Assembly: GCA_029194535.1 (NCBI GenBank)
Contig: JARFXR010000001.1
Location: forward strand, 806,001 to 870,000
Direction of reading: 5' to 3'
Source: Nitrospira sp.
GTDB lineage: Bacteria > Nitrospirota > Nitrospiria > Nitrospirales > Nitrospiraceae
Length of the DNA stretch: 64,000 bases
This document shows, in pieces, positions 24,029-45,367 of this stretch. Both the position numbers and the translations under genes were made by a program. Every line of letters begins with the position of its first letter. The stretch's first letter is position 1. The notes under the pieces are model-generated. The model was given only the letters and a program-made list of their open reading frames with translations. It had not been told where the DNA came from and did not search any database.

Positions 24029-24104
24029 GAGCCGCTAGCTCAGACGGTAGAGCATCGCCCTTTTAAGGCGAGGGCCCTGGGTTCGAGTCCCAGGCGGCTC
24101 ACCA
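24029..24104 (+). tRNA. tRNA-Lys (UUU anticodon)
   Basis: A complete cloverleaf. Acceptor GAGCCGC pairs with GCGGCTC, the D arm is GCTC-AGACGGTA-GAGC, and the anticodon arm TCGCC-CTTTTAA-GGCGA gives anticodon TTT. The T arm is CTGGG-TTCGAGT-CCCAG and CCA is encoded at 24102-24104. A perfect 10-bp inverted repeat (CTCACCACTT, 24098-24107, with AAGTGGTGAG, 24111-24120) overlaps its 3' end. The accessory region starts just downstream, as expected of a tRNA integration site. Confidence 0.96.
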
Positions 24105-24554: not shown

Positions 24555-24806
24555 ATGGCTGATCTAGCGCGAGATCCGAGACAAATTGGAAACCTGATCC
24601 GACGAGCCCGGAAGAAGCAAGGTTGGAGTCAAACGCAACTCGGTAGGCTAGCCGGACTGCGGCAGGAGACGATTTCGCTGATCGAGACAGGGAATCCGTC
24701 GACGACACTGGAGACGATCTTGAGCGTGCTGGCCGCGCTTGACCTGGAGTTTAGGGCAATGCCGCGATCCAAAAGTCGGGCTTCCGATATTGAGGAGATC
24801 TTCTGA
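24555..24806 (+). CDS. hipB: HipB-like antitoxin (Xre-family regulator)
   Basis: An 83-residue helix-turn-helix protein: IGNLIRRARKKQGWSQTQL is helix 1-2, AGLRQETISLIETG the recognition region. HipB binds its own operon promoter and neutralises HipA. The stop overlaps the hipA start (TGATG), which is typical of the pair. ATG 24555 is preferred over GTG 24549 because GAGGAG lies 8 nt upstream of it. Confidence 0.88.
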   Translation: MADLARDPRQIGNLIRRARKKQGWSQTQLGRLAGLRQETISLIETGNPSTTLETILSVLAALDLEFRAMPRSKSRASDIEEIF

Positions 24807-26128
24807 TGCCGCGCCGCCGCACCCATGCGCCTCTGCTCGTACTCCTCAATAACCGGCGGGTCGGCGAGTTGAGCAAGGCGGCCACTGGCGCGATCGATTT
24901 CCGGTATGAGCCAGAATGGCTAGCATGGGAGCATGCGCTGCCGGTTTCGTTGTCGCTGCCGTTGCGGGAAGATCCCTACAGAGGCGAAGCAGTCACGGCC
25001 GCGTTCGATAATCTGCTGCCGGATTCCGATGCGCTGCGCCGGCGCGTGGCCGAACGAGTTGGTGCAGACGGAACGGATGCGTATAGTCTTCTAGCCGCCA
25101 TCGGTAGGGATTGCGTCGGGGCACTGCAATTCATCGGAGTTGAGGATGAATATGAGGGCGACGGTGCCATCAAGGGAGAATCTGTCAATGAAGCAGCCAT
25201 TGAGCGGTTGCTGCAGGGGCTGGCACAGGCGCCGCTCGGCTTGAGTCGGGCCGAGGATTTCCGTATTTCGGTGGCTGGCGTGCAGGAAAAAACCGCGCTG
25301 CTTCGGCACAAGGGCCGGTGGTGGAAGCCTTCAGGCACCACGCCGACCACACATATTTTCAAGAAACAGATCGGTCTATTGCCGAACGGCCTTAACCTGT
25401 CGGACAGCGTCGAGAATGAATTCTACTGCCTGAAGCTGGGAGCGGCTTTCGGGCTGCCGGTCAACAAGGCGGAGATTCACGACTACAACGAGACCCGAGC
25501 TCTAGTCATTGAGCGGTTCGACCGGCGGTGGACAAAGGACGGGCGCCTGCTGCGCCTGCCGCAGGAGGATTGCTGCCAGGCGCTATCTGTGCCGCCGACG
25601 AGGAAATATCAAAGCGAAGGCGGGCCTGGGTTGGTGAAGATCCTGGAATTATTGAAAGGCAGTGATACTCCAGTTGCCGACCGGGCGACCGTCTTTAAAG
25701 CACAGATGTTCTTCTGGCTGATCGGCGCCACGGACGGGCATGCGAAGAACTTCAGTATTTTTCTAGGCCCGGGGGGGACATATCACCTGACGCCGCTCTA
25801 CGACGTGCTGACCGCACAACCAAGTCTCGATGCGGGACAGATCGATCGGAAACAGATGAAGCTCTCCATGTCGGTTGGCACAAATTGCCACTACAGAATC
25901 AGTGAGATCCGCGGACGACATTTCGTGCAGACCGGGAAGGCGGCAGGCCTGGCGGAATCTGTTGTCCGTGCGGTGCTCGCGGAGATAGCGGATTCGGCGG
26001 AGAAGGCTCTGCAAAAAGTCGAAAGCGCATTACCCCAGGGGTTCCCCGCGTCGATCCATGCATCGGTCAGCAGGGGCGTGAAGAACCGCATTGACTTGCT
26101 TGCCGTCGGGGCTGGAGGGAAAAAATAA
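24806..26128 (+). CDS. hipA: HipA-like serine/threonine kinase toxin
   Basis: A 440-residue HipA-family kinase, the usual size. The N-terminal subdomain-1 ends near LPDSDALRRRVAER, the ATP-binding region includes SVAGVQEKTALL and PTTHIFKK, and the catalytic/metal-binding region is IGATDGHAKNFSIFL with PLYDVLTAQP. HipA toxins phosphorylate a tRNA synthetase (GltX in E. coli) and cause growth arrest. It is coupled to hipB by a 1-nt overlap. All key motifs look intact, so the pair is probably functional. Confidence 0.9.
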   Translation: MPRRRTHAPLLVLLNNRRVGELSKAATGAIDFRYEPEWLAWEHALPVSLSLPLREDPYRGEAVTAAFDNLLPDSDALRRRVAERVGADGTDAYSLLAAIGRDCVGALQFIGVEDEYEGDGAIKGESVNEAAIERLLQGLAQAPLGLSRAEDFRISVAGVQEKTALLRHKGRWWKPSGTTPTTHIFKKQIGLLPNGLNLSDSVENEFYCLKLGAAFGLPVNKAEIHDYNETRALVIERFDRRWTKDGRLLRLPQEDCCQALSVPPTRKYQSEGGPGLVKILELLKGSDTPVADRATVFKAQMFFWLIGATDGHAKNFSIFLGPGGTYHLTPLYDVLTAQPSLDAGQIDRKQMKLSMSVGTNCHYRISEIRGRHFVQTGKAAGLAESVVRAVLAEIADSAEKALQKVESALPQGFPASIHASVSRGVKNRIDLLAVGAGGKK

Positions 26129-26890: not shown

Positions 26891-29800
26891 ATGAAAAAGA
26901 CCGTCAATGGCCAACGGGTGTACTCTCCGAGCGATCTCGTCCGCTACCTCGCCTCGCCCTTCGCTTCCTGGATGGATCGCTATTACCTTGAGAATCCAGA
27001 CGCCGTCACGCCCGATGAAGATAGTGAGGAGGGCCGGCTGATTGCACAAACTGGACAAGAACATGAGCGGACGGTTCTTGCGGAATTGAAAAGCGCCCCT
27101 GCCGGAGTCGTCGAAATTTCGACGAAGAACTCAGCGACCGCACGCCAGGAAACACTCTCCGCGATTGAATCCAAATCCGCGGTGATTTATCAGGCTGCCT
27201 TACATAGCGGCCAGTTCGCCGGCTATGCCGACTTCCTTATGCTGGACGCAGGCGGACGGTACCAAGTTTGGGATACCAAGCTGGCGAAGTCTCCGAGACC
27301 CTATTACGCCATTCAACTGTGCTGTTATGCAGAGATGCTCGCCGATGTGATTCAAGCACCGGTCTCCGACCGGTTCGGAATCATTCTTGGGACAAAGGAA
27401 CGGCTTGAACATCGGCTTGAAGACTTCGTCCACTATTATCGGCACATCAAAAGATCGTTCCTCGAGATGCAGGAAGCTTTCACTGGCCGTCTGGCGGACC
27501 GTCCGGAACCGCTCCCCCGCGCAGATCACTACCAATGGACGACTCATGCCGAGAAGTTTTTCGAGGAGTCCGATCATCTCGTCCGGATCGCGAACATCAC
27601 GACGGGCCAGATCAAGAAGCTGAACAAAGCCGGCATCACGACGATGGCCCAATTGGCACAGGCGACCGGGCTCACGATTCCAAGGCTCAACCAAGATACT
27701 TTCGAAAAGCTGGTCGCTCAAGCGCGCCTCCAATGCGGGACGATGGCTGATCGCACCACGAGCGCCGATGCTCCGCCCCGATATGAGGTATTGTCGCACA
27801 TAAGAAACAACGGAGAGCTCGTCGGGCTTGCGGCGCTTCCAGCAGACGATCCTGCCGATGTGTTTTTCGATATGGAGGGATATCCGTTGGCAGCTGGTGG
27901 GCTGGAATACCTCTTCGGCGTCTGCCAGTGGAATCCCTCAACGCGCTCAGACAAATTTAAGGACTGGTGGGCGCATGACAGGGACGAAGAAAAGAGGGCC
28001 TTCGAAGGGCTTATCGATTGGGTCTATGCCCAATGGAAGAGCCATCCGCGCATGCATATCTACCATTACGCCGATTATGAAGTGAGTGCGGTGAGACGGC
28101 TCAGCACGCGCCACGACACACGCCAAGACGAGGTGGACGAGTTGTTGCGGAACGAAGTCTTTGTGGATCTCTTCCGGATCGTCCGGCAAGGGCTGATCAT
28201 TGGGGAAGATAGTTACTCCATCAAATCGGTTGAGCTGTTGTATCGGTCAAAGCGGGAGACGAGGGTGGCCACCGCGGCAGATTCAATCGTTCAATACTAC
28301 CGTTGGATGGAGAGTCAAGAATCACGAGACTGGAACAAGAGTCCTATCCTCAAAGGCATCAGGGACTATAACGAGGTTGATTGTCAGTCCACGGCGCAGT
28401 TGGCTCGCTGGTTGAGAACCGTCGCGAAGGAACACCAGATTGACGCAGCGCTTCAGCATTCGGTCGCACCGCAGACGGAAGAACGCGAATTGCCACCGGA
28501 AGTCATAGCCCGGCTAGCTACGTCCAAACAACTTCGGAATAGCGGGGACAGCGCATCGGTGGTGCTCGGTGATGTGATCGATTTTCACCGACGCGAGCAG
28601 AAGCCGATGTGGTGGCGAATGTTCGATCGAGCCGCTGCCATGCCGGAAGAACGACGAGATGATCCGGGTTGTATCGAAGGGATTACAGCGCAGGGATCGT
28701 GTGAGAATGAGAAGCAATCACTCATCCAAACTTACAGCTTTGATCCATCCCAGGAGTGCAAGTTGGCCGGTGACGACAAGGTCCGATTCACACACAATCT
28801 TGACGCCACCTTTACGCTCTCAGAGATCGATGCCTCGGCGGGGCGACTGAGGTTGAAAATTGGCAGGAAGAGCTTGGATGCCAAATGTGCCGGAACGTTC
28901 CCCGCGCAAGGTGCTTTGCTTGCGGATGAATTCGTCTCACCGGCTGGAATTCCAGATGCGCTGACAGCCGTCGCGGCTGGGCACTTGTCGGGGCACCTCC
29001 ATCCACCAGTCGCTGCGCTGTTAGACCGTCGCCCACCGGCCAGGTCGATGCAAGTGGCCGGGGAGCCAACCATCGATGCCGCTATTCGGGTCGCTGGCTT
29101 GATGTCGGGAGGCTGTCTGGTCATACAAGGTCCGCCAGGAACAGGAAAGACGTATGCAGCCGCCAGGGTGATCAGTGCGCTGCTTGCCACCAATAGGAAA
29201 GTTGGCATTGCGTCGAACAGCCACAAGGCGATCGTCAATTTGATGGAGGAGTGCGGCCAGGCGGAACGCGAGAGGAGACGAGATATCCAAGGGATCAAAG
29301 TCGGCGGTGACCAAGATCTGCGCTTCTTGGAAGCCAATCCGCGTATAGATTATGTCGGCAGCTCTAATGACGCGCGATCGGCATATACAGGAGGTGTCGT
29401 AGGCGGAACAGCGTGGCTGTTTAGTCGGCCGGAATGGGAGGGTGTTCTGGACTTTCTCTTCATCGACGAAGCGGGGCAGGTGGCGCTGGCCAATGCCATC
29501 GCGATGGCGAGATGCGCCAAGAACCTCGTCCTGCTGGGTGATCAGATGCAGTTAGAGCAACCGATCCAGGGTGCACATCCCGGTGATGCCGGCCTGTCCG
29601 TGCTGCAGTATGCCCTCAAAGACACAGTAGCCAGCGGACCAGACTCCCCTGTGTTCCATGCCGTGGTGCCTCCGGATTACGGCCTGTTCTTGGGTGAATC
29701 TCGCCGCATGCACCCCTCCGTCTGCCGCTTCATCTCTGAAAGCATGTACGAGGGACGCCTCTACTCCCATCCCGACTGTTCTCGTCAGCGGATCGAATTG

Positions 29801-30316
29801 CGGCCAGGCAATGAGCGCCTCATCAAGAAAGAGAACGGCATTGTCTTCAGCCCGGTCGAGCATGATGGGAACACCCAGCAGAGTGATGAGGAACTCGCGC
29901 GCGTGAAGGCGATCTTCAACGAGCTGCTCGGTCGTTCGTATACCGATAAAGAAGGCAAAACTAGGTCGTTGGCTCTTGAAGATTTTCTCTTCATCGCGCC
30001 CTACAACGCCCAGGTCCGGGCGCTCAAGACCACCCTTCCGCAAGGCGCACGGGTGGGGAGTGTGGACAAATTCCAGGGGCAGGAAGCGCCGGTCTGCATC
30101 CTGTCGCTCTGTTCGAGTTACGGCGAATACGGCTCCAGAGGATTGGGTTTCATTCTAGATCGTAACAGAGTCAATGTTGCCATATCGCGCGCCCAGTGCA
30201 TGGCTGTCGTTGTGGCCGATCCTCGGATTGCTCGTGCTATCCCAAGCTCGCTGGATGAAATGATGTTGATCAATCTGTTCTGCAAATTAGCCGAGTATTC
30301 AGAGGCCCGGCCATGA
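26891..30316 (+). CDS. TM0106-type RecB-like nuclease / exonuclease / SF1 helicase fusion
   Basis: A 1141-residue three-part protein. Residues ~1-200 resemble a RecB/Cas4-like nuclease, with GYADFLML and VWDTKLAK supplying the D...DxK residues (Asp114, Asp128, Lys130). Residues ~320-510 are a DEDD-type exonuclease/RNase H-like domain: FFDMEGYP (Asp327, Glu329), a middle HIYHYADYE and a late YNEVDCQST. Residues ~700-1130 are an SF1 helicase: Walker A GPPGTGKT (747-754), LFIDEAGQ, LLGDQMQLEQP, ESRRMHPSV, VDKFQGQEAP and NRVNVAISRAQ. This is the TM0106 family architecture. It starts the defence-like locus and is 159 bp upstream of the DUF1998 helicase. Confidence 0.88.
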   Translation: MKKTVNGQRVYSPSDLVRYLASPFASWMDRYYLENPDAVTPDEDSEEGRLIAQTGQEHERTVLAELKSAPAGVVEISTKNSATARQETLSAIESKSAVIYQAALHSGQFAGYADFLMLDAGGRYQVWDTKLAKSPRPYYAIQLCCYAEMLADVIQAPVSDRFGIILGTKERLEHRLEDFVHYYRHIKRSFLEMQEAFTGRLADRPEPLPRADHYQWTTHAEKFFEESDHLVRIANITTGQIKKLNKAGITTMAQLAQATGLTIPRLNQDTFEKLVAQARLQCGTMADRTTSADAPPRYEVLSHIRNNGELVGLAALPADDPADVFFDMEGYPLAAGGLEYLFGVCQWNPSTRSDKFKDWWAHDRDEEKRAFEGLIDWVYAQWKSHPRMHIYHYADYEVSAVRRLSTRHDTRQDEVDELLRNEVFVDLFRIVRQGLIIGEDSYSIKSVELLYRSKRETRVATAADSIVQYYRWMESQESRDWNKSPILKGIRDYNEVDCQSTAQLARWLRTVAKEHQIDAALQHSVAPQTEERELPPEVIARLATSKQLRNSGDSASVVLGDVIDFHRREQKPMWWRMFDRAAAMPEERRDDPGCIEGITAQGSCENEKQSLIQTYSFDPSQECKLAGDDKVRFTHNLDATFTLSEIDASAGRLRLKIGRKSLDAKCAGTFPAQGALLADEFVSPAGIPDALTAVAAGHLSGHLHPPVAALLDRRPPARSMQVAGEPTIDAAIRVAGLMSGGCLVIQGPPGTGKTYAAARVISALLATNRKVGIASNSHKAIVNLMEECGQAERERRRDIQGIKVGGDQDLRFLEANPRIDYVGSSNDARSAYTGGVVGGTAWLFSRPEWEGVLDFLFIDEAGQVALANAIAMARCAKNLVLLGDQMQLEQPIQGAHPGDAGLSVLQYALKDTVASGPDSPVFHAVVPPDYGLFLGESRRMHPSVCRFISESMYEGRLYSHPDCSRQRIELRPGNERLIKKENGIVFSPVEHDGNTQQSDEELARVKAIFNELLGRSYTDKEGKTRSLALEDFLFIAPYNAQVRALKTTLPQGARVGSVDKFQGQEAPVCILSLCSSYGEYGSRGLGFILDRNRVNVAISRAQCMAVVVADPRIARAIPSSLDEMMLINLFCKLAEYSEARP

Positions 30317-30475
30317 GTGTACCTGGATGAAAGAGCCAGTAAAAACATGTCCTATTCTGGCTGCCTCGCTATCGCTTCCGGTAGATCTCCCCTTCCGAAA
30401 GGATTGCTTTCTTCAAGAGACATAGGTATTCCTTTCCGCCAAGATGACCCGAAGTCTTGAAGGCTAGAGTAGTCG

Positions 30476-33400
30476 ATGAACATCTTCCAAACCCATTCCA
30501 GCATCGTTTCTGACTATGCCAGCTACATCAGCAGCTTCATCAAGATTTCCGATCCGGACATACAAAGAGTCGTCGAGGCAGAGTTAGTCCGCGGCAAGCT
30601 CTGGCCCGAGCCGTTACTCCAGTTCAATCCCTCCTTCGAAATCGTCGGCAACATCGATCATATTGCGGGGACCGAGGGGCTTCATCCCGATATCCGTCAC
30701 ATCTTCAGCAACTTCAAGCTCTATCGTCACCAGATTGACGCGATGCGACTGGGCTTAGCGGGAAAAGACTTCGTCGTTACATCGGGGACAGGATCTGGTA
30801 AATCGCTCACGTACATTGGCTCAATCTTCAACTACATCCTCTCCACCCCCGGGACTAAGGGGGTCGCGGCAGTCGTTGTCTATCCGATGAACGCCCTCAT
30901 CAATTCACAGTTTGAGGAGTTCACGCGTTACCAAAAGAATTTCGAGGAAGCAACCGGGAAACAATTTCCCATCTCGTTCGGCCAATACACGGGCCAAGAG
31001 AAGGAAGACGCCCGCACAAAGATGCGGGAAGAACCGCCGCAAATTCTGCTGACCAACTACATGATGTTGGAACTTCTCTTGACTCGCGTGCGGGAGCGTT
31101 CGATCCGAGACGGCATCTATCAGAATCTCCGGTTCTTAGTCTTCGATGAACTGCACACCTATCGCGGCCGCCAGGGATCGGATGTGGCTCTCCTCATTCG
31201 GCGGATTCGGTCCCACTGCAGCAGGCCAGTCGTGTGCATCGGAACATCTGCAACCATGGTGTCTGCTGGAACCCCAGCCGCAAAACGAGCCGAGGTGGCA
31301 ACAGTTGCCACGAAGCTCTTCGGGAAACCATTTACCTCTGAGCAGATTGTCATTGAAACACTGGATAGGTCTTGCTCGTTCAACGGAACGGTACCAGGCT
31401 CAAGAGAATTGGCCGCAGCTCTTCAGGCGATCCTTCCATCCGAAACCGATCTGCAAGGGCTGAAAGACAATCCGGTAGCCATCTGGCTTGAAAACCGAAT
31501 GGCTCTGGATGTGCAAGACGGAGAGTTAGTGCGGGGGAAGCCACGTCGAATCTCCGAGATTGTCGTGTTGCTTTCTCAGGAATCAGGAGTTCCTGTGGAC
31601 TCCTGTCGCCGATTTCTCGAACAGCTCCTGCAATCGATCAGCGCAGCCAATAAGCGACTCCGAGATGCTGGGATCATCTATACGTTGTTGCCATTCAAGC
31701 TGCACCAATTCATCTCCCAGACTGGGTCTGTGTATACGACCTTGGATCAGGACGAAAACCGATTCATCACGCTGGAGCCAGGCATCTATAAACAGGACGA
31801 GGACGACAAGAAGCCCATATTCCCTCTCGTCTTCAGCCGTGCGAGTGGTCATCCCTTCATTTGTGTATCACATACGGGCAACCGCCTAGAACCGCGAGAA
31901 TTCCGCGAAAGTTCCGAAGATGACGACCAGGGAAACGACGGGTATGTGATTCCGGGAGAAGGCCTATGGGATCCCGCAGAGGACATCGACTTCTTGCCGG
32001 AATCCTGGCTTCGGTTAACCAAGTCGGGGCCCGTCCCGGATACAAAGAAGAAGCCGTATTTCCCCAGCAAGATCTATTTTGATGAATTTGGCAATTGCTC
32101 TGATACCACCCCGCTGAAATGGGAGGGGTGGTTCATGAAGGCCCCATTGCTCTTTGATCCGACCGCAGGGGTCTTCTACGACACAAAGACGAATGAAGGG
32201 ACGAAGCTCACCAAGCTCGGAAGCGAGGGCCGAAGTACGTCAACAGCAATCACCGCCTTTTCAATTCTGAACCGGCTGGCAGACGCCGACATACGACCAG
32301 AAGACCAAAAACTTTTGAGCTTCACGGACAATCGCCAAGACGCCGCGTTGCAAGCTGGTCATTTCAATGACTTTGTGCAAGTCGTTCGCCTGCGAGCCGG
32401 TATCCATAAGGCCCTTGTCCAAGCCCCGTCCGGATCGCTCAACTACGCGAACATCGGTGAAGCTGTTCGCAAGGCATTGGGATTACCTTTTGTTGATTTT
32501 GCCAACAAGAATGAGGAGCCGGTGCTCGCACCTGTGCGGCGAAACTATGAACAGTCCTTCCAAGATTATTTGTTGTACCGAGCCATTGCAGATCTGCGTC
32601 GAAGCTGGCGAATTGTGCTCCCCAATCTGGAGCAATGTGGCCTCCTCAATGTCGAGTACGCCGATCTCGATGAAATAGCAGCTACCGAAGAGTTTTGGAA
32701 AGACACACCCTTATTGGGCGACGTGAAGACAGAGGATCGCAAAGAACTCGTGGCGACGGTCCTCGATTTCTTCCGGTTGGAGTTTGCCATCCAGAGCGAG
32801 AATTATCTGACCCAATCGCGCATCAAGGAAAACGAAAAGCAGTTCCGTGAGCTATTGCGCCCACCGTGGACGTTAGATCGTAACGAGCAGCTTCGTGAGC
32901 CATTCGCAATCCGTCTCGATCCGCTTCACAGAAGCGCCAGGGTCTTTTCAAAAAGCATGGGGCCGGCAAGCTCACTCGGAAAATTCATCAAGCTCTATGT
33001 GAAGCAGAAGGCGCTCCATATTCCCCTCAAGGGGCAGCAGTATCGAGATGCGATTCTTCAGATCATGGGCAAGCTGGAACAGGCGGATTATCTGAAGTCG
33101 CAAATCGCCAAATCCGAGAACAACGAGGATGTCCCTATCTATCGTCTCCGATTGGAGAAGATCATCTGGAAGCGAGGCGACGGCACGGTCAAAAGCGACG
33201 TGATTAAGCAGCGGGCCTATAAAGATCAAGCGCCTAAGCCGAACAAATTCTTCCGGGCGCTCTATCAGCGTGATTTTGCCACGGTGAAGCGACTTCGAGG
33301 AGAAGATCACACGGGCCAGCTCGGCACGGATCTTCGAATCGAGCGTGAGGGACTGTTCAGAGAGGGGAAGATCAGTGCCCTCTTTTGTTCCCCCACGATG

Positions 33401-35584
33401 GAGCTGGGGATTGATATTCGTAACTTGAACGTCGTGCATATGCGCAATGCACCGCCTAACCCATCGAATTATGCGCAACGTTCTGGGCGAGCGGGGCGAA
33501 GTGGGCAGGCCGCCTTGATATTCACCTATTGCTCCACCTACTCGCCGCACGATCGGCATTATTTCAATGAGCAGGAAGCGCTTGTGGCAGGAGAGGTCCT
33601 GGCACCACGCCTCGACCTATGTAATCGGGAACTTCTGGAGTCACACCTGAATGCCTTGGTGGTATCCGAAATCGGATTGCCCGGTCTTGACTCAACGGGA
33701 GACACCAATCCCTCTCTGATGCGTCTGGTCACAGATGATAATGACAGGATGCCATTGTCGCCCGGTGTCCGGGCTGGTCTGACCGTTTCACCGGCCACAT
33801 TCGACCGTCTCAAGAATGGCTTTAAGCGAGCGATTGGAGAGTTAGAAGGACCTCTGAAGGAGACGACCTGGTACACGGACCAGTGGATAGAGCAAAACCT
33901 CGCAAAGATAGCAGACCATCTCGACAAGTCGCTGGATCGATGGCGCGCGCTCTATCGTTCGGCTCGGACCATACTCACGCGTGCGACCCAAAAACTCGAA
34001 AGCGGGACGCTGACCATCGCCAGTGAGGAGTACCGCAAATACAAACGCAATCTCGATCAGGCCACGCGCCAGTTAGACCTTCTTCGGAATGATCTTTCCG
34101 GGAAAGCGTCCGAACTCTCCGAGTTCTACCCCTATCGCTATTTGGCCTCGGAGGGATTTCTCCCCGGCTACAATTTCACTCGGTTGCCCCTGCGCGTCTT
34201 CCTGCCGACCAGCGATTCGTCAGGCGAATTTGTGTCTCGTCCGCGCCCAATCGCGCTCAGGGAGTTCGGGCCCCAGAACATCATCTATCACAACGGCCGC
34301 AAGTATCGAGTGTGTCAGCTCGTGGTGCAGGATGCAGAATCGGCGCTGACCGAAGCGAAGCTCAGTACCAAGGCCGGGTATTTTCTCACGATGGATCAAA
34401 AAGATTTGGAGATTTGTCCATTCTCGGGTCTCAATCTTGGGGATAATGCCAACAAGACCCACCTGCATCATCTCCTAGAGATGACTGAGTCCCGCGCAGA
34501 AGAAATCGACCGAATCTCATGTGAAGAAGAGGAGCGGCTATCCAGAGGCTATGAGATCGAAACCTATTTTTCGGTCGATGCAGGACATCTCGAACGGGTC
34601 AAGAAAGCCGTCGCGCAATCGAGCGAGACCAATTTACTGAACCTCCGATACATCCCGGCGGCCCGGCTCGTTCATGTGAATTACAAATGGCGTTCCCAGA
34701 CTTCGGATGGATTTCCGATCGGCCTCGTATCTGGAGACTGGCGGAGCTCGATACCGGCCAACAACAGCAATACCAATGAAAACTTCAAGTCGGTCAAGCT
34801 CTGGACCTCCAATCTCGCCGATGCCTTGCATATTGAACCGATCCAGCCACTGGGCCTCAAGGCAGAAGGGGTCATTACCCTGCAGCATGCGCTCAAGCGC
34901 GCGATCGAATCGGTCTTCCAGGTCGAATCGCGGGAAGTGGGTGTCGTCACGGTTGGTGATCCTGATGCTCCGAATATTCTCCTCTACGAAGCATCGGAAG
35001 GCAGTCTCGGAATCCTGTCGCAATTTGTGGAAGATGTGAACGTTTTCCATAGGGTGATCCGTGAAGCGATTGCCCTCTGCCGGTATCATGATCCCGCGTA
35101 TAAGGGGCCCGCGTCCTATAGCGATCTGCTCAGCTACTACAACCAGCGTGACCACAAGATCATCGACCGGCATCTCATCAAGGATGCGCTGCACAAGCTC
35201 CTGATCTGCACCATCGAGATTCAGGCCAATCTGAACTATAGGAACTATGAAGACCACTACCAGGCACTCCTCCGGGCGTTCGACCCGAGCTCAACAACCG
35301 AACGGAAGTTCCTGGAGCATCTGTATACGAACGGGCTCCGGTTGCCCGACGCGGCCCAGAGGCGAGTCGACGGGATCTATGTTCAGCCGGATTTCTACTA
35401 TGAGCCGCGTATCTGGATCTTCTGCGACGGGACTCCCCATGATGAACCGGATGTGAAAGCCAGGGATGAAGAACAGCGCCAGGCGATTATCGCGAAGGGT
35501 GATGAAGTCTGGGTCTACTACTACAAGGACAATTTGGCTGAGAAGGTGGCCGCTCGTCCGGATATCTTCAAGAAAGTACGATGA
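30476..35584 (+). CDS. large DEAD/DEAH helicase with DUF1998 and C-terminal nuclease-like domain
   Basis: A 1702-residue SF2 helicase. The Q-like motif LYRHQIDAM is followed by Walker A TSGTGSGKS (103-110), motif II DELH (224-227), motif III GTSATM, FTDNRQDAALQAGHFND, and late motifs CSPTMELGIDIRNL and YAQRSGRAGRSGQA. A DUF1998 region (GVITLQHALKRAIESVFQ, LLYEASEGSLGILSQF) lies at about 1440-1560. The last ~95 residues (VQPDFYYEPRIWIFCDG...H) look like a PD-(D/E)xK or Vsr-like fold, with Asp/Glu-rich continuation DEPDVKARDEEQR. In its parts it resembles DrmA plus DrmB of DISARM or DruE of Druantia. Its stop overlaps the SNF2 start (ATGA). Confidence 0.86.
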   Translation: MNIFQTHSSIVSDYASYISSFIKISDPDIQRVVEAELVRGKLWPEPLLQFNPSFEIVGNIDHIAGTEGLHPDIRHIFSNFKLYRHQIDAMRLGLAGKDFVVTSGTGSGKSLTYIGSIFNYILSTPGTKGVAAVVVYPMNALINSQFEEFTRYQKNFEEATGKQFPISFGQYTGQEKEDARTKMREEPPQILLTNYMMLELLLTRVRERSIRDGIYQNLRFLVFDELHTYRGRQGSDVALLIRRIRSHCSRPVVCIGTSATMVSAGTPAAKRAEVATVATKLFGKPFTSEQIVIETLDRSCSFNGTVPGSRELAAALQAILPSETDLQGLKDNPVAIWLENRMALDVQDGELVRGKPRRISEIVVLLSQESGVPVDSCRRFLEQLLQSISAANKRLRDAGIIYTLLPFKLHQFISQTGSVYTTLDQDENRFITLEPGIYKQDEDDKKPIFPLVFSRASGHPFICVSHTGNRLEPREFRESSEDDDQGNDGYVIPGEGLWDPAEDIDFLPESWLRLTKSGPVPDTKKKPYFPSKIYFDEFGNCSDTTPLKWEGWFMKAPLLFDPTAGVFYDTKTNEGTKLTKLGSEGRSTSTAITAFSILNRLADADIRPEDQKLLSFTDNRQDAALQAGHFNDFVQVVRLRAGIHKALVQAPSGSLNYANIGEAVRKALGLPFVDFANKNEEPVLAPVRRNYEQSFQDYLLYRAIADLRRSWRIVLPNLEQCGLLNVEYADLDEIAATEEFWKDTPLLGDVKTEDRKELVATVLDFFRLEFAIQSENYLTQSRIKENEKQFRELLRPPWTLDRNEQLREPFAIRLDPLHRSARVFSKSMGPASSLGKFIKLYVKQKALHIPLKGQQYRDAILQIMGKLEQADYLKSQIAKSENNEDVPIYRLRLEKIIWKRGDGTVKSDVIKQRAYKDQAPKPNKFFRALYQRDFATVKRLRGEDHTGQLGTDLRIEREGLFREGKISALFCSPTMELGIDIRNLNVVHMRNAPPNPSNYAQRSGRAGRSGQAALIFTYCSTYSPHDRHYFNEQEALVAGEVLAPRLDLCNRELLESHLNALVVSEIGLPGLDSTGDTNPSLMRLVTDDNDRMPLSPGVRAGLTVSPATFDRLKNGFKRAIGELEGPLKETTWYTDQWIEQNLAKIADHLDKSLDRWRALYRSARTILTRATQKLESGTLTIASEEYRKYKRNLDQATRQLDLLRNDLSGKASELSEFYPYRYLASEGFLPGYNFTRLPLRVFLPTSDSSGEFVSRPRPIALREFGPQNIIYHNGRKYRVCQLVVQDAESALTEAKLSTKAGYFLTMDQKDLEICPFSGLNLGDNANKTHLHHLLEMTESRAEEIDRISCEEEERLSRGYEIETYFSVDAGHLERVKKAVAQSSETNLLNLRYIPAARLVHVNYKWRSQTSDGFPIGLVSGDWRSSIPANNSNTNENFKSVKLWTSNLADALHIEPIQPLGLKAEGVITLQHALKRAIESVFQVESREVGVVTVGDPDAPNILLYEASEGSLGILSQFVEDVNVFHRVIREAIALCRYHDPAYKGPASYSDLLSYYNQRDHKIIDRHLIKDALHKLLICTIEIQANLNYRNYEDHYQALLRAFDPSSTTERKFLEHLYTNGLRLPDAAQRRVDGIYVQPDFYYEPRIWIFCDGTPHDEPDVKARDEEQRQAIIAKGDEVWVYYYKDNLAEKVAARPDIFKKVR

Positions 35585-38454
35585 CAGTCGCGTTTCAACC
35601 GGGAAAATTGATTACGCTCCGTGGACGCACCTGGATCGTCCTCCCATCGGAAGACCCCGATCTCCTGGTCGTGAAACCGCTCGGGGGATCCGAAGAGGAG
35701 ATTGCAGGAATTTATTTGCCCTTGGGCGTCGAAAGCGACCGACCAGCGGATGCCACGTTCCGCCCACCGGCCAAGGAAGATCTCGGGGATATCAGCACCG
35801 CGCGGTTGCTGTATGACTCCGCTCGCCTGGCCTTCCGCAACGGAGCTGGCCCATTTCGCTCCCTGGCCAAGCTCTCCTTCCGACCACGTTCGTATCAGAT
35901 GGTTCCCCTCATCATGGCCCTCCGGCAGGAATCAGTGCGGCTGATGGTGGCCGATGACGTGGGTGTCGGGAAGACAGTCGAAGCGCTCGTGGTGGTAAAG
36001 GAACTCCTCGAACGTCGGAAGATCACACGCTTTGCCGTCGTCTGCTTACCGCACCTGTGCGACCAATGGCAGGCCGAAATCCGCGACAAGCTGGATCTCG
36101 AAGCGGTGATTATCCGTTCGAACACGCAGGCACGACTGGACCGGCAGATCCAAGGCGACATGAGCGTCTATGACTATTACCCCTACCAGGTCATCAGCAT
36201 CGACTTTATCAAGTCAGACACCAGACGGGATGTGTTCATCGAACAATGCCCTGAACTTGTCATCGTCGATGAAGCCCACACCTGCGCACGACCTGCCGGC
36301 GCTTCGGCAAGTCAGCAACAGCGCTACCATCTCGTCAGTCGGATCGCCAGAAAGCCGAAGCAACAACTGATTCTGCTCACGGCGACCCCCCACAGTGGAA
36401 AACCGGAGGAGTTTCATTCGCTCCTCGGCCTCTTGAAGCCTGAATTCGAAGAGATCGATCTTCCCGCTTCGACCCAGACACAACGGCGAGATCTCGCGAA
36501 ATATTTTGTCCAGCGGAAGCGGGCCGACGTTGAGAGATGGATGGGCGAGAACACGCCGTTTCCGAAGCGGGAAGCGTTCGAATGGCCCTACGATCTCTCT
36601 CGGGGATACAGTCGGTTCTTTGAGCAGATCCTCGACTTTGCCAAGAAGCTGGTCTCGCCTGATGAGGACAAAGATGGAAAGCGTCGAGTGCAATATTGGA
36701 CGGCACTGGCTCTCCTCCGCGGGGTCATGTCGAGCCCGGCCGCCGGCATCGAAATGCTGAATACCCGTCTCGACGATCTTGGACCTGGAGCAGGAGACGA
36801 GGCTAAGACAGTCAGTCTTCTCGATTACGCCTCCGGGGAGAACCCAGTCCGCGACACGGAATTTGGGTCTGATGGAGACAGCACCCCGCAACAAGTCGTG
36901 GAGCACAATGAGTGGACCGCCACTCAGCGGCAACAACTGCGCGCCTTTTCAGACCAGCTTAGCGGGCTCTCGAATTTGAAAGATGACCAGAAGCTCGCGT
37001 CGGCAGAACTCATTCTAGGCGAATGGCTGGGAAAGGGGATCAGCCCGGTCGTCTTCTGCCGCTACATTAAGACGGCGGACTATGTGGGGGAGAAACTGGC
37101 CCCTGCGGTGAAGGCGAAATTCCCCAAGCTCGATCTGCAAGTCATCACCAGTGAACTACCGGACGATCTGCGCAAGCAACGAATCGAAGAGATGGGCAAA
37201 TCCAGCCTTCGTGTGCTGATTGCCACAGACTGCCTGAGCGAGGGGATCAACCTCCAGCAACATTTTACCGGGGTCCTGCACTACGATTTGCCCTGGAACC
37301 CCAATCGGCTGGAACAGCGAGAAGGACGCGTCGATCGATTCGGCCAGACGGCAAAGGAAGTAAAAGCCTGTCTACTGTACGGGGCAGATAATCCCATCGA
37401 TGGCATCGTATTGGATGTGTTGCTGAGAAAGGTCCGAGAGATCAAGCGCGCAACCGGTATCAACGTCCCCTTCCCGGAGGATTCGCAAAGTATCATTGAT
37501 ACGATCACCCAAGCCCTCCTGCTCAATCCGGACCGGAAGATTGCCCGCCACCGCGATAAGAATCAGATTGAGTTCAGTTTCGACGAGTTCGACGAAGCCG
37601 CCAAGTCAAAAGCACAGGTGACCCGCAAGGTCGACGAAGCTGCTGAGCGCGAAAAGGTCTCCCGCAGCATCTTTGCACAAAACGCCATCAAGGCCGAAGA
37701 GATCGAAACGGACCTGCGAGAGGTGGACGAAGCGATCGGGGATCCCAAAGCAGTCGAGGAATTCGTGACCGCTACGTTGGACAATCTCCTAGGCGTGCAG
37801 GTGATCAAGGATGCGAAGGGTTACCGCATTGTGATGGGGAACATGCCGCCTCAGCTTCGGGAAGCGTTGCCCACCGGCGATCCGGTCAAAGTAAGTTTCG
37901 AGTCGCCGACCCCGGAAGGCTATCGCTACCTAGGCCGCAACAACCGCTTTGTCGAGCAATTGTGCCAGTTGGTGATGGGCAACACGTTGTCGCGAATGGA
38001 TAAACGGGCGGCGCGGGCGGCCGTCATCCGAACGAACCAGGTTGAGACGAAAACGACGCTCTTGCTGTTCCGCTGTCGGAACGTGATCGAGCAACAGAAA
38101 GGCCGGCATCAAATCGTCGCGGAAGAGATGCTCCTCTGGGGCTGGCGCGGAACACCGCAGCAAAAGGAATTCCTCGACCATGGCCAGGCCAAAGCGCTAC
38201 TCGCCGCGGCGAGGGCCACATCGGAACTCACGGTCCAGGCTCGGGCGGGTTTTCTCGAAAATGAATTGAAGTTGCTGGAGACGCTGCAGGCGGACTTTTC
38301 TACGGTCGCAGAACAGCAGTCGAAGAAACTGGTGCAGGCTCACGAGCGGTTCAGCTCGCTCATGGATGCCCAGCGGTTTCAGGTCGTGTATCCGGTCCTG
38401 CCCATGGATCTCCTCGGCATGTACATCCTCTTGCCCGACGGAGCATCGGCCTAA
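35581..38454 (+). CDS. SNF2/RapA-like helicase (DrmD-like)
   Basis: A 957-residue SNF2-family ATPase. Key motifs are ADDVGVGKTVEALVV (Walker A 128-132 region, with Asp-Asp-Val in place of the usual Asp-Glu-x), IVDEAHTCARP (230-233), LLTATPHSGK, VVFCRYIKTADYV, IATDCLSEGINLQ and the late NRLEQREGRVDRFGQ. The C-terminal ~250 residues are charged and helical with no known domain. It overlaps the upstream helicase by 4 nt and is followed after 21 nt by the methyltransferase, so three genes form one operon. In class 1 DISARM an SNF2 helicase (DrmD) has this place beside the methylase. Confidence 0.9.
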   Translation: MTVAFQPGKLITLRGRTWIVLPSEDPDLLVVKPLGGSEEEIAGIYLPLGVESDRPADATFRPPAKEDLGDISTARLLYDSARLAFRNGAGPFRSLAKLSFRPRSYQMVPLIMALRQESVRLMVADDVGVGKTVEALVVVKELLERRKITRFAVVCLPHLCDQWQAEIRDKLDLEAVIIRSNTQARLDRQIQGDMSVYDYYPYQVISIDFIKSDTRRDVFIEQCPELVIVDEAHTCARPAGASASQQQRYHLVSRIARKPKQQLILLTATPHSGKPEEFHSLLGLLKPEFEEIDLPASTQTQRRDLAKYFVQRKRADVERWMGENTPFPKREAFEWPYDLSRGYSRFFEQILDFAKKLVSPDEDKDGKRRVQYWTALALLRGVMSSPAAGIEMLNTRLDDLGPGAGDEAKTVSLLDYASGENPVRDTEFGSDGDSTPQQVVEHNEWTATQRQQLRAFSDQLSGLSNLKDDQKLASAELILGEWLGKGISPVVFCRYIKTADYVGEKLAPAVKAKFPKLDLQVITSELPDDLRKQRIEEMGKSSLRVLIATDCLSEGINLQQHFTGVLHYDLPWNPNRLEQREGRVDRFGQTAKEVKACLLYGADNPIDGIVLDVLLRKVREIKRATGINVPFPEDSQSIIDTITQALLLNPDRKIARHRDKNQIEFSFDEFDEAAKSKAQVTRKVDEAAEREKVSRSIFAQNAIKAEEIETDLREVDEAIGDPKAVEEFVTATLDNLLGVQVIKDAKGYRIVMGNMPPQLREALPTGDPVKVSFESPTPEGYRYLGRNNRFVEQLCQLVMGNTLSRMDKRAARAAVIRTNQVETKTTLLLFRCRNVIEQQKGRHQIVAEEMLLWGWRGTPQQKEFLDHGQAKALLAAARATSELTVQARAGFLENELKLLETLQADFSTVAEQQSKKLVQAHERFSSLMDAQRFQVVYPVLPMDLLGMYILLPDGASA

Positions 38455-38475
38455 TCGAGGGGATATGCAGGCTCC

Positions 38476-41400
38476 ATGAACTATCCCAGCATCCGCATCG
38501 AAGGAGCGATCCTTTCACCAGACCTCCTTGATCGGCTCGACGACATCGCCGGACAGCGTCCCAGCGATTTTGCATTCGACGGGTCGGTCAAGGTGAAGGA
38601 CGAGATCGCCCGGGCCTGGGCCGACGCGCAGGACTATTGGCGGATCTTCCAACGCAAGCTCGAAACCCTGAAAGCCGATTCCCCCGCCACCACAGAGACT
38701 CGCAATCTCTGGATCGTGCCCCTTCTCGGGTTGCTCGGCTATCAGCTTGAGTATCAGGCGAGGGGGGTAGAACTAAACGGCAAGAACTATCCCATCTCTC
38801 ACAGGGTCGTCAATCGCGGACAGACCGCGCTCCATATCATCGGATACCGCGAAGCTGCCGGGCTGGACAAGAAACCGGATCGGACCACGGTGCGAATGTC
38901 GGCCCACGCATTGGTGCAGGAATACCTGAATCTGAGTGACCAGGTCTATGGGGGAGTCACCAATGGACGCCTGCTCAGGCTTCTGCGTGATAGCTCCCGT
39001 CTTGTCAAGCTCACCTATCTGGAGTTTGATCTGGATCGGATCTTCACCGATGGTTTGTTTGCCGATTTTGCCGTCCTCTACCGGCTGCTCCACGTCTCTC
39101 GGTTGCCCGCGTCACCTGACGCGACGGCCGAGAGCCTGATCGAGCGCTACCATCAAGACTCACTCGAATCAGGGGCCCGCATTCGAGATGGGCTCAGCAA
39201 GGCCGTTGAACAGGCCATCCTGTCGTTCGCCAACGGATTTCTCACGCATCCCAACAATGAGACGTTGCGACAAGCGGTCAATACCAGCGAGATCAAGCCG
39301 GATGCCTACTATCAGTACCTGCTCCGCCTGATCTACCGGCTCCTGTTCCTCTTGGTTATTGAGGAGCGTGATCTGGTCTATCCTGCTTCAGTGCCGAGCG
39401 CAAAGCGACAGGTGTACGACCGATACTACAGCCTGCAACGGCTCCGACGACTGTCTGAGAAGCGGTATCTCGCGGATCACCGGCACCATGATCTGTGGTT
39501 GAGCCTCCTCGCCACCTTCCGACTATTTGAGGCCGATGGGCCGGGAAGTAAGCTCGGTCTGGCGCCGTTAGCGGGAGATTTGTTTGGGGCTGATGCCATC
39601 GGGCCACTGAACCGATGCATGTTGACGAACGAGGTGCTGCTTGGCTGCCTAAGGTCCCTGGGCCTCTATCAGCATCCCGATACCAAACAGGTCATCCGGG
39701 TCAACTATGCGGCCCTGAATGTTGAGGAGTTTGGGTCGGTCTATGAGGGATTGCTGGAATACGAGCCGGTCTTTCACACCACCGGCAACCAAGCTGAATT
39801 TACCTTTTCAAAGGGAGAGGAACGAGCTGCTACGGGATCTCATTACACTCCGGACGAATTGGTCCAACCGCTCCTCAAACATTCGCTCGATTATCTCATC
39901 GCAGAGAAGCTCAAGGAGACGGATAAGGAAAAGGCGCTGCTCTCATTGCGCGTGGCCGATATCGCCTGCGGCTCCGGCCATATCTTGCTCGCTGCGGCCC
40001 GACGGATCGCCACAGAACTAGCGATTGTCCGAACAGGCGAAGAGCAGCCGTCACCTGGCGCGTTTCGCACGGCTGTCCGGGATGTCATCCGCGAGTGCAT
40101 CTACGGCGTGGACTATAACCCTCTGGCGGTCGAACTGTGCAAGGTGGCCTTCTGGCTCGAAGCCCATAATCCCGGCCAGCCACTGAACTTTCTCGATCAT
40201 CACATCAAGTGCGGGAACGCCATCGTTGGGTATGTGAGGCGAGAGGAGTTGGATAAGGGAGTCCCTGACGAGGCCTTCGCCACTATGCCTGGGGACGACA
40301 AGAAAGTCGCGGCCGAATTCCGAAAGCAAAATAAAGCTGAACGAAAGGCCCAAGACCAAACTCCGTTGAATCTCGCGCCGGAGATTCAGAGACAACTCGA
40401 CCAAATTCTAGAGCGCTGGCGAGAACTGTCAGTACTGCCCGAGGCGACGCCTAACCAGATTGCGGCCAAGAAACAACGGTATAAGGACTTTACCAAGAGC
40501 CAAGATGCCTGGCTGCTGAATCAGATCGCCTGCATTCCGATCGCCCAGTTCTATCTTCCGAAAACACAGCAGAATCATTCTAAACTGATATCAGACGCAG
40601 AGTTTCGCCTGTACTGGTCAGGCCAGCGCCATCCACAGGGCCAAGCGACGGCAGCGGCCTGGGTGACATCGATACAGAAACGATTCTTTCATTGGTTCTT
40701 GGAATTTCCAGAGATCATTGAGCGTGGAGGGTTTGATTGCATACTGGGCAACCCGCCTTATCTTGGCGGCCAAGCTCTCAGTGGCACTTACGGCCATCCC
40801 TTTTGCCAGTACGTCAAATGGCAATATTCGCCGGCTGGTTTGAGCGAATTGGTAGTGTATTTCGTGCGGCGAATCTTCAGCCTCTTACGGTCAGGCGGGC
40901 TTACGGCATTTATCACAACCAATTCGATTAAAGACGGCGATATCCGGAAAGACGGACTCGAACAAATACTGGCGAGTAACGGTGGGATCAACTTCGCTAT
41001 CCGCGGTACTAAATGGCCGGGGCGGGCCAATCTTGTAGTGTCTTTGGTGGCGATCCACAAGGGCGACTGGCACGGTAAGAGAGTGCTCGACGGAAAAGAA
41101 GTTTCAGTCATCAGCGCTTACTTCGAGGATAGCCTCGACATAGGCGAGCCGATGCCACTTTCTGAGAATGAGGACCGAGTTTTTCAGGGGTCCATCTTTC
41201 TCGGTGATGGCTTCTTACTGTCACATGAGGAAGCTGATCGACTGACCCAGGCTTATTCACGTAATAGGGATGTGATCTTTCGCACGATTAACGGCGAAGA
41301 GGTAAATAATAGTCCTATACAGGCGCCCGGGAGATCCATTATCAACTTCTTCGATTGGGGAATTGATAGAGCTCAGGAATATGCGGAGCCTTTTCGCATA

Positions 41401-42288
41401 ATAGAGGAGAAGGTCAACCCCTTTCGGGCTAGGCAAAAGCGAAAACGTAACCGTGACATATGGTGGATCTATGCCGAGCATCGTCCGGGGCTGAACAGAG
41501 CTCTCCGGTCTCTTGACCAATGTTTTGTTGCTGCGGCAACGACTAAGCATCTCAACTTCTCTGCTACCCCGACTACCTATGTTTTCTCTCATGCCCTCTA
41601 TGTCTTCGTGACAAGCCGTTGGGACATTTTCTCGGTGGTCCAATCTACCCTCCACGAAGTCTGGGCGCGCAAATATAGTGGTGCGCTTGAAACGAGGCTT
41701 CGCTATTCGCCTTCCGACTGCTTCGAGACTTTTCCCTTCCCCGAAGGCTTGTGGCGGACGGCGAATCCGGAGCTGGCAGATATCGGCGAGCGCTACCACG
41801 AGCACCGCCGTGTCCTCATGCGCCAGCTCTGGTTGGGCTTGACCGATATTTACAATCTCTTCCACACCCGTGATCTCACACCTGAGGTAGTTGGCAAGGT
41901 CAGTAAGAAGTCCGCTGAAGAGGCGGAGGCAGGTTATCGTGGTCTTCTCAAGCTGCGCCAATTGCATCAAAAGCTCGACGACGCCGTCCGCGACGCCTAC
42001 GGCTGGCAAGACCTCAAGCTCGACCACGACTTCTATGAAGTCGAAACCCTCCCCGAAAACGACCGCGTCCGCTACACAATCAGCCCCACCGCCCGCAAAG
42101 AAGTCCTCCGCCGCCTCCTCGCTCTCAACCACGCCCGCGCGAAGATGGAAGCAGAGGCTCAGACGTCTCAGGTAGCGGCATCGCCGAAAAGCACATCTCG
42201 AAAAGGTCGAAAATCCAAGAACCGTGGCAACTCAACGTTGTATCAGGGAGACGATTTGACTGTGCCAGAGGGCGAAAGCAGTGCCTGA
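38476..42288 (+). CDS. Eco57I-type adenine-specific DNA methyltransferase
   Basis: A 1270-residue N6-adenine methyltransferase. SAM motif I is ADIACGSGHILLAAARR (about 492-508), catalytic motif IV is ILGNPPYLGG (NPPY at about 759-762), and motif VI-like FFVRRIFSLLRSGG follows. The ~490-residue N-terminal region (NLWIVPLLGLLGYQLEYQAR, FLLVIEERDLVYP) is the helical type found in DrmMI/PglX-like enzymes. The C-terminus is a target-recognition-like part ending in a Lys/Arg-rich tail. Residues 1176-1223 are duplicated almost exactly at 45107-45250. It should mark self DNA for the helicase-nuclease genes upstream. Confidence 0.9.
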   Translation: MNYPSIRIEGAILSPDLLDRLDDIAGQRPSDFAFDGSVKVKDEIARAWADAQDYWRIFQRKLETLKADSPATTETRNLWIVPLLGLLGYQLEYQARGVELNGKNYPISHRVVNRGQTALHIIGYREAAGLDKKPDRTTVRMSAHALVQEYLNLSDQVYGGVTNGRLLRLLRDSSRLVKLTYLEFDLDRIFTDGLFADFAVLYRLLHVSRLPASPDATAESLIERYHQDSLESGARIRDGLSKAVEQAILSFANGFLTHPNNETLRQAVNTSEIKPDAYYQYLLRLIYRLLFLLVIEERDLVYPASVPSAKRQVYDRYYSLQRLRRLSEKRYLADHRHHDLWLSLLATFRLFEADGPGSKLGLAPLAGDLFGADAIGPLNRCMLTNEVLLGCLRSLGLYQHPDTKQVIRVNYAALNVEEFGSVYEGLLEYEPVFHTTGNQAEFTFSKGEERAATGSHYTPDELVQPLLKHSLDYLIAEKLKETDKEKALLSLRVADIACGSGHILLAAARRIATELAIVRTGEEQPSPGAFRTAVRDVIRECIYGVDYNPLAVELCKVAFWLEAHNPGQPLNFLDHHIKCGNAIVGYVRREELDKGVPDEAFATMPGDDKKVAAEFRKQNKAERKAQDQTPLNLAPEIQRQLDQILERWRELSVLPEATPNQIAAKKQRYKDFTKSQDAWLLNQIACIPIAQFYLPKTQQNHSKLISDAEFRLYWSGQRHPQGQATAAAWVTSIQKRFFHWFLEFPEIIERGGFDCILGNPPYLGGQALSGTYGHPFCQYVKWQYSPAGLSELVVYFVRRIFSLLRSGGLTAFITTNSIKDGDIRKDGLEQILASNGGINFAIRGTKWPGRANLVVSLVAIHKGDWHGKRVLDGKEVSVISAYFEDSLDIGEPMPLSENEDRVFQGSIFLGDGFLLSHEEADRLTQAYSRNRDVIFRTINGEEVNNSPIQAPGRSIINFFDWGIDRAQEYAEPFRIIEEKVNPFRARQKRKRNRDIWWIYAEHRPGLNRALRSLDQCFVAAATTKHLNFSATPTTYVFSHALYVFVTSRWDIFSVVQSTLHEVWARKYSGALETRLRYSPSDCFETFPFPEGLWRTANPELADIGERYHEHRRVLMRQLWLGLTDIYNLFHTRDLTPEVVGKVSKKSAEEAEAGYRGLLKLRQLHQKLDDAVRDAYGWQDLKLDHDFYEVETLPENDRVRYTISPTARKEVLRRLLALNHARAKMEAEAQTSQVAASPKSTSRKGRKSKNRGNSTLYQGDDLTVPEGESSA
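42001..42144. repeat. 144-bp direct repeat, copy 1 (inside the methyltransferase)
   Basis: This stretch is repeated in the same orientation at 45107-45250. The first 113 bases are identical and the last 31 hold four mismatches, 140 of 144 in total. It encodes GWQDLKLDHDFYEVETLPEN and the next 28 residues in the same frame in both genes. Confidence 0.92.
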
Positions 42289-44227: not shown

Positions 44228-45367
44228 GTGACAGATGAAGCAAATGCGGCCAGATCGTTGCTGGATCAGCTGCTGATTGACTCTCACCTGTACAAGCACA
44301 GTCAAGCCTACAAGAACCTCCTCGACTTCGTGGTCAAGCTCAGAAACTTCGCTCCGTTCAACGCCATGCTTCTTCAATTACAGAAGCCTGGGCTGAGCTA
44401 CGCGGCGTCCGCTCATGACTGGAAGACTCGGTTTGATCGTTGGCCAAGAGAAGGCGCACGTCCACTCTTGATCCTCTGGCCCTTTGGCCCCGTCGCTCTT
44501 GTGTACGACATACAAGATACGGAAGGAAAAGATATCCCTCCGGGTATTGCGTCTTTCTTTGCGCGGGGTTCGATATCCAAGGAACAGATTGAATCTTATC
44601 CATCCATCCTGTGGAGGAAGAGGATTGAGTGGCTTCCCGTAGACGCCGGGGACCGCAACGCAGGATTGATCCGAGTGGTATCCCGCGGGCGTACTCCAAG
44701 TGAGCACTCACATTATCGAATCCAGATCAATCGCAATCACGATCCTCCGATAAAATTTGCTACTTTAGCGCATGAGCTAGGCCACCTCTTTCTTGGCCAT
44801 CTTGGCCCCGACAAAGCGCTTGGTGTGTCAGATCGACCCCGAATGAGCCATAGCCAGCGCGAACTCGAGGCCGAATCACTAGCGTACCTCGTGTGTGCTC
44901 GAAACGGCGTATCCTGCAAGTCAGAGCAATACCTCTCGGATTATGTCTCGCAACATACGACGATCGATGACATCGATCTGTACCACGTGATGCATGCCGC
45001 CGGCCAAATCGAGACCTTACTTGGGCTCACCGGACACACGGTTCGAGAAACCGATGAGAAATTCAGGTGCCGAGAAATGACAACCGGGGCGCTTCGTTCA
45101 ACCATCGGCTGGCAAGACCTCAAGCTCGACCACGACTTCTATGAAGTCGAAACCCTCCCCGAAAACGACCGCGTCCGCTACACAATCAGCCCCACCGCCC
45201 GCAAAGAAGTCCTCCGCCGACTCCTCGCCCTCAACCACGACCGGGCGAAGGCCGAACAAGCCGCTGCTGTTGCTATCCCGAAAACAAAAAGAAGCTCGAA
45301 GAGAAAGACCCCACAATCAGCGGCGGGCCTTTATACCGACAGTACAGAAGTTGTCGAGCTGGACTGA
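44228..45367 (+). CDS. ImmA/IrrE-like metallopeptidase with methyltransferase-derived C-terminus
   Basis: A 379-residue chimera. Residues ~1-290 are an ImmA/IrrE-type zinc peptidase. An ArdC-like N-terminal part (NFAPFNAMLLQLQKPG) precedes FATLAHELGHLFLGHLG (His182, Glu183, His186) and a third-ligand region RELEAESLAYLVC. Residues 294-341 are the near-identical copy of the methyltransferase C-terminus, followed by a Lys-rich tail (PKTKRSSKRKTPQSA). The natural peptidase probably ends near CREMTTGALRS. The start is GTG 44228. The fused tail is in frame, so a fusion protein may be made. Its usual partners are repressors, which ImmA cleaves. Confidence 0.75.
   Translation: MTDEANAARSLLDQLLIDSHLYKHSQAYKNLLDFVVKLRNFAPFNAMLLQLQKPGLSYAASAHDWKTRFDRWPREGARPLLILWPFGPVALVYDIQDTEGKDIPPGIASFFARGSISKEQIESYPSILWRKRIEWLPVDAGDRNAGLIRVVSRGRTPSEHSHYRIQINRNHDPPIKFATLAHELGHLFLGHLGPDKALGVSDRPRMSHSQRELEAESLAYLVCARNGVSCKSEQYLSDYVSQHTTIDDIDLYHVMHAAGQIETLLGLTGHTVRETDEKFRCREMTTGALRSTIGWQDLKLDHDFYEVETLPENDRVRYTISPTARKEVLRRLLALNHDRAKAEQAAAVAIPKTKRSSKRKTPQSAAGLYTDSTEVVELD
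45107..45250. repeat. 144-bp direct repeat, copy 2 (inside the peptidase gene)
   Basis: The partner of the repeat at 42001-42144, with 140 of 144 bases identical. It is in frame after the ImmA-like part. The 3' sequence continues as a Lys-rich tail that resembles, but does not copy, the methyltransferase tail, so it looks like the end of a second methyltransferase gene. Confidence 0.92.

Follow-up and report, generated by a model that had tools for sequence, protein, structure and literature searches.

ARMADA is a named relative of DISARM that was described in 2025 (Bell et al. 2025, PMC12458937). In the main published description, type I consists, in this order, of a YprA helicase, a BrxHII-like helicase and a PglX-like methyltransferase, with a C-terminal Vsr-type nuclease; its published features also include a BrxA-like insertion after RecA1, a MarR-like insertion in RecA2 and a coiled-coil finger. 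Zinc-binding CxxC modules, including the four-cysteine site of DUF1998, are presented there as a feature of the lineage, and loss of the DUF1998 zinc site is reported for Dpd only (PMC12458937). The same description portrays ARMADA type II as a direct, non-abortive defence that needs all four of its genes, as well as intact helicase and methyltransferase motifs (PMC12458937). In the literature that we searched, only type II had been submitted to a defence test, and no such test was found for any type I ARMADA or for the clade presented below.

Here, we analysed a 64-kb stretch of a Nitrospira sp. genome (hereafter the window) and propose, with a probability of about 0.8, that its positions 30476-42288 represent an ARMADA type I anti-phage operon, belonging to a distinct zinc-free clade and hosted by a defence island at a tRNA-Lys gene. 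This reading is built on gene content, gene order, conservation, intact motifs, clade membership and the loss of zinc ligands.

The operon comprises three genes on the forward strand, delineated by their open reading frames together with Pfam and PADLOC matches. An armC-like gene (30476-35584) encodes a YprA-family SF2 helicase of 1702 aa, whose assignment is also based on phylogeny; it is followed by an armA-like gene (35581-38454) for an SNF2/RapA/BrxHII-like helicase of 957 aa, which adjoins YprA across loci, and by an armB-like gene (38476-42288) for an Eco57I/PglX/MmeI-type N6-adenine methyltransferase of 1270 aa. Upstream and on the same strand lies a gene for a TM0106 (TIGR03491) nuclease-helicase of 1141 aa (26891-30316), recognised from its reading frame and Pfam/TIGR profiles. 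The earlier note had read these four genes as a single locus, and its layout was exact: the YprA and SNF2 reading frames overlap by 4 nt (35581-35584) and 21 nt (38455-38475) separate the SNF2 and methyltransferase genes. The TM0106 and YprA genes are 159 nt apart, so the TM0106 gene lacks the tight coupling that links the other three. Scanning the region for sigma-70 sites gave none, and a terminator scan found nothing clearly above chance.

The protein families named in that note were likewise confirmed. In YprA, Pfam delineates DEAD and Helicase_C domains and a degenerate MZB/DUF1998 part, after which comes a C-terminal segment (aa 1553-1702, 35132-35581) that the note had called PD-(D/E)xK-like. 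Four residues of this segment (E1609, D1639, H1655 and D1664) are invariant in an alignment of 50 homologues, and the model predicted for the last 150 residues (pLDDT 91) is matched best, in fold, by the homing nuclease I-Bth0305I (probability 0.99, E-value 0.04), an EDxHD, Vsr-related enzyme. Alignment and model together thus predict a real EDxHD/Vsr-type nuclease domain. The SNF2 protein carries GVGKT and DEAH motifs, while the methyltransferase carries ACGSG and NPPY and an MmeI-type target recognition domain (Pfam), and is matched by the PADLOC model of DrmMI with 740 bits.

Scanning GTDB species genomes with the window SNF2 protein yielded 80 loci, nearly all of which have YprA directly upstream and the methyltransferase downstream wherever the contig reaches that far. 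These loci are spread over a dozen or more phyla, including Nitrospirota, Planctomycetota, Pseudomonadota, Desulfobacterota, Bacteroidota, Verrucomicrobiota/Lentisphaerae, Armatimonadetes, Omnitrophota and KSB1, with operon proteins sharing 39-90% identity. Since the adjacency is conserved at such identities over so many phyla, the three genes form one conserved unit, far beyond chance. In about half of the loci there is a gap between the SNF2 and methyltransferase genes, filled by an SLFN-AlbA_2/HATPase_c_4 protein in 17 loci and by a family of ~200 aa without Pfam match in 5; this position appears as a variable accessory slot (L005, L013, L031, L064, L070, L083 and others). Clustering of neighbours revealed no conserved upstream partner of the operon, the exception being an integrase that lies close to four loci, on one side or the other. 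A gene for an HTH-M78 peptidase followed by a small PIN-like gene also recurs near ARMADA genes, downstream in three loci (L008, L016, L081) and, in a Nitrospirota locus (L180:1221-14987), within the order SNF2, methyltransferase, HTH-M78, PIN-like, YprA.

Two trees were used to place the window YprA. Their type I operons were identified from the genes present and the sequence in which these follow each other, WP_108720193.1, the type I reference, being left out, and the ARMADA II and Druantia III references came from an E. coli Zorya II-Druantia III-ARMADA II array whose gene order was recovered. The first tree placed the window protein in a 17-row clade of YprA-SNF2-methyltransferase operons (support 99/99), apart from ARMADA II, Druantia I/III and DrmA, and the second, with more type I sequences, gave the same placement with a support of 100. 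Alignment with relatives revealed the degradation of three zinc modules. In module 1 (31835-32167), the cysteines of relatives at positions 454/457 and 561/564 are replaced by S/S and D/A; in module 2 (1297/1300/1314/1317; 34364-34426), C1314 is the sole cysteine remaining; and in the DUF1998 four-cysteine site (35078-35125), the cysteines at 1543/1547/1550 have become K/S/D. The flanks align clearly around the lost cysteines, FCRECGQEY of relatives becoming FSRASGHPF and CYxCLLSYYNQ becoming SYxDLLSYYNQ. These alignments and trees place the window YprA in a well-supported clade of 65 sequences without the cysteine pairs of all three modules. CxxC motifs number 0.15 per protein on average in this clade (maximum 2) and are wholly absent from 54 of 63 clade loci, as against 5-11 in proteins outside it (n=15). 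All 15 of these relatives keep CxxC pairs; they include type I sisters from Cyanobacteriota, Chloroflexota, Actinomycetota, Deinococcota, Campylobacterota and Pseudomonadota, one Nitrospirota type I, one other Nitrospirota YprA, ARMADA II and Druantia I/III. In the second tree, the loss maps to one branch with a support of 100.

The window operon therefore resembles ARMADA type I in its gene set and order (YprA, BrxHII-like helicase, PglX-like methyltransferase), in its broad distribution, in the lack of ArmD and, judging from invariant residues and fold match, in its predicted Vsr-type C-terminal nuclease. By contrast, the clade departs from the published lineage feature of zinc-binding CxxC modules, and many of its members carry an extra gene between the SNF2 and methyltransferase genes. 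Because of the missing CxxC modules, we describe it not as a typical member but as a variant clade that phylogeny and gene order place inside ARMADA I, and for the same reason it might be ranked as a type of its own. Compared with the main published description of ARMADA, the new element here would be the loss of all three zinc modules.

Several observations indicate that the operon most likely arrived by horizontal transfer, entering an integration hot spot at the tRNA-Lys gene (24029-24104, forward strand) beside purA. The purA-tRNA-Lys pair is conserved in five relatives while the sequence after the tRNA differs in all of them, the G+C content drops from 0.61 to about 0.50, and the helicases of the operon are 81-90% identical to those of Nitrospira LK70, above the 76% of purA. 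No tRNA repeat of at least 14 nt marking the right end of the island was found in the window. Further features of the region include a HipA-family kinase gene (24806-26128) shortly after the tRNA, at the left end of the island; a 983-aa protein (46025-48976) that resembles the C-terminal part of Dsr1, has no SIR2 match and has relatives downstream of the operon in three loci (L012, L056, L061); and a class III aminotransferase gene that looks broken, being split over two reading frames (59894-60409 and 60499-61269). In addition, a 160-bp direct repeat (93%; 42000-42159 and 45106-45265) copies the 3' end of the methyltransferase gene onto that of an M78-peptidase gene (44228-45367), and a similar tail copy follows an inserted gene in another locus (L013, 20854-21012). 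We considered this shared tail as a general docking domain and rejected the idea; as only the window and that locus hold two tail copies, the duplication looks like an occasional recombination scar.

Assignment to ARMADA I has to be weighed against two other readings of the gene set. The earlier note had proposed a DISARM-like locus, that is, a class 1 variant in which DrmA and DrmB are fused and DrmC is lost. DISARM class 1 does have an SNF2 helicase and an adenine methyltransferase of the same superfamilies and a DUF1998-type module, and the SNF2 and methyltransferase proteins of the window match the DrmD and DrmMI models; the locus is DISARM-related. However, the SNF2 protein reaches 297 bits against the DrmD equivalog, below its cut-off of 610, and YprA scores 267 bits with DruE3 versus 38 bits with DrmA, its profile lying closer to Druantia than to DrmA. 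A helicase core and a DUF1998 module do coexist in one protein, but DrmB does not appear among the best 25 PADLOC matches, and YprA clusters with ARMADA I in the tree, DrmA forming a remote long branch. The PLD nuclease was correctly called missing (no PLD match in ten neighbouring proteins), and DISARM class 1 is itself characterized by split DrmA and DrmB and by the presence of DrmC. Order, tree and C-terminal nuclease fit ARMADA type I, and a DISARM variant is highly improbable. The other described systems also differ: ARMADA type II of E. coli has homologous helicases and a methyltransferase, but is arranged as ArmA-ArmB-ArmC with a UvrD/GajB-like ArmD and a YprA of about 2110 aa with 7-9 CxxC, while no ArmD (GajB/UvrD-like) gene follows the window operon, the next reading frames having no helicase match. 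Druantia provides the nearest PADLOC profile for YprA (DruE), but forms a separate clade, and none of its partners (DruA-D, DruM/F/G, DruH) had a PADLOC match here.

The second reading, also taken from the note, counts TM0106 as a fourth component that may supply the nuclease activity of what could be a distinct DISARM subtype. TM0106 is well preserved: it matches the TIGR03491 RecB-like nuclease profile with 207 bits (cut-off 97), carries RNase_H_2 (DEDD) and AAA_11/AAA_12 SF1 helicase domains, as the note had recognised, and the catalytic residues of all three modules show little or no variation across 26 homologues. Its structure model is good and is best matched by Dna2, which likewise joins a RecB-like nuclease to a Dna2/UPF1-type SF1 helicase in one chain, TM0106 differing by its additional DEDD RNase-H-fold nuclease. 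Mokosh (MkoA/MkoC) was discarded as an identity, since its PADLOC matches are not full-length and their best stretches fall in the C-terminal SF1 helicase part only; searches found no viral relative and, in the literature covered, no paper on this nuclease family. A local addition providing nuclease activity or resection, as ArmD may for type II, would agree with the intact modules and the same-strand position 159 nt upstream. Consistent with it, TM0106 is found ahead of ARMADA I in Sphingomonas sp. MM-1 and at a distance of about 10 kb in Croceicoccus, and a different TM0106-family nuclease lies 0.7 kb downstream in the sister locus of Nitrospira LK70. Yet an SbcD/SbcC-like pair intervenes in Sphingomonas MM-1, no tandem copy precedes the operon in any of the 52 loci with room upstream (one holds a divergent copy), and TM0106 is absent from 10/10 whole operon-bearing genomes. 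Among the genomes sampled, full-length relatives were present in 12 of 296 from the phylum (window genome included) and in 16 of 399 from Pseudomonadota. Two congeners (G001, G004) have TM0106 among conserved chromosomal genes and have no ARMADA; at the matching chromosomal site, where a congener has an intact copy, the window genome keeps a decayed remnant of a second TM0106 gene (L138:9040-9487; G000:C1 about 2109.0-2109.5 kb). Elsewhere, TM0106 flanks BREX, type I RM, McrBC-like pairs, Zac-like genes, TrlF, SbcCD-like pairs or PDH genes, and of the 8 McrC-like genes present in 27 genomes with TM0106, 7 are no more than 9 kb away from it. TM0106 is thus an independent neighbour and not a member of the operon; the note had itself named a lack of such conservation as grounds against its subtype, and with the remaining three genes being the ARMADA I set, the proposed subtype did not hold. 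No outside nuclease is needed either, because YprA has its own predicted nuclease domain, and a genuine fourth component is improbable. Somewhat less so, but still doubtful, is a modular, system-independent effector that digests ends made by whichever ARMADA, BREX, McrBC, type I RM or Zac-like system adjoins it, here the zinc-free ARMADA I. McrBC-like pairs were seen near TM0106 in several loci (L141, L147, L149, L151, L155, L156, L160, L163, L170), and the closest sister operon is adjoined by an NT5C-type nucleotidase and a 484-aa RecB and RNase_H_2 protein without helicase (L004:16682-18801).

The ARMADA I operon is proposed to act in defence by discriminating sites and cleaving DNA. The methyltransferase would mark or inspect host sites through its MmeI-type recognition domain, and the SNF2 translocase and YprA helicase would load on unmarked invading DNA, which the YprA motor would unwind and its own C-terminal EDxHD/Vsr-type nuclease would cut, so that the phage may be cleared without the cell being killed. 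By analogy with ARMADA II, the operon would need no more than its three genes, one of which brings its own nuclease, and the helicase canopy of the zinc-free clade would have to fold without zinc. TM0106, as a separate gene of the island, may add a Dna2-like end-resection in trans, but would not be required. Protection of self DNA by the methyltransferase is favoured over a role in target recognition alone. A less probable mechanism, compatible with ARMADA membership, is an action like that of Druantia III, in which phage replication intermediates containing ssDNA are attacked and the methyltransferase homologue serves as a recognition subunit instead of protecting host DNA. The YprA profile is closest to DruE-type helicases, and Druantia III has been reported, in the published account, to engage such intermediates (PMC13192584). 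Against it, the window methyltransferase keeps ACGSG, NPPY and its target recognition domain, and in ARMADA II a mutation of NPPW is described as abolishing protection, a result that does not separate methylation from binding (PMC12458937).

The recurrence of TM0106 beside unrelated restriction systems makes it a candidate defence gene in its own right, and the small three-gene form of the operon may suit biochemistry. A type I branch that spans phyla and is devoid of all zinc modules, even of the site by which the YprA family is said to be defined, provides a natural experiment on the role of these modules in defensive helicases.
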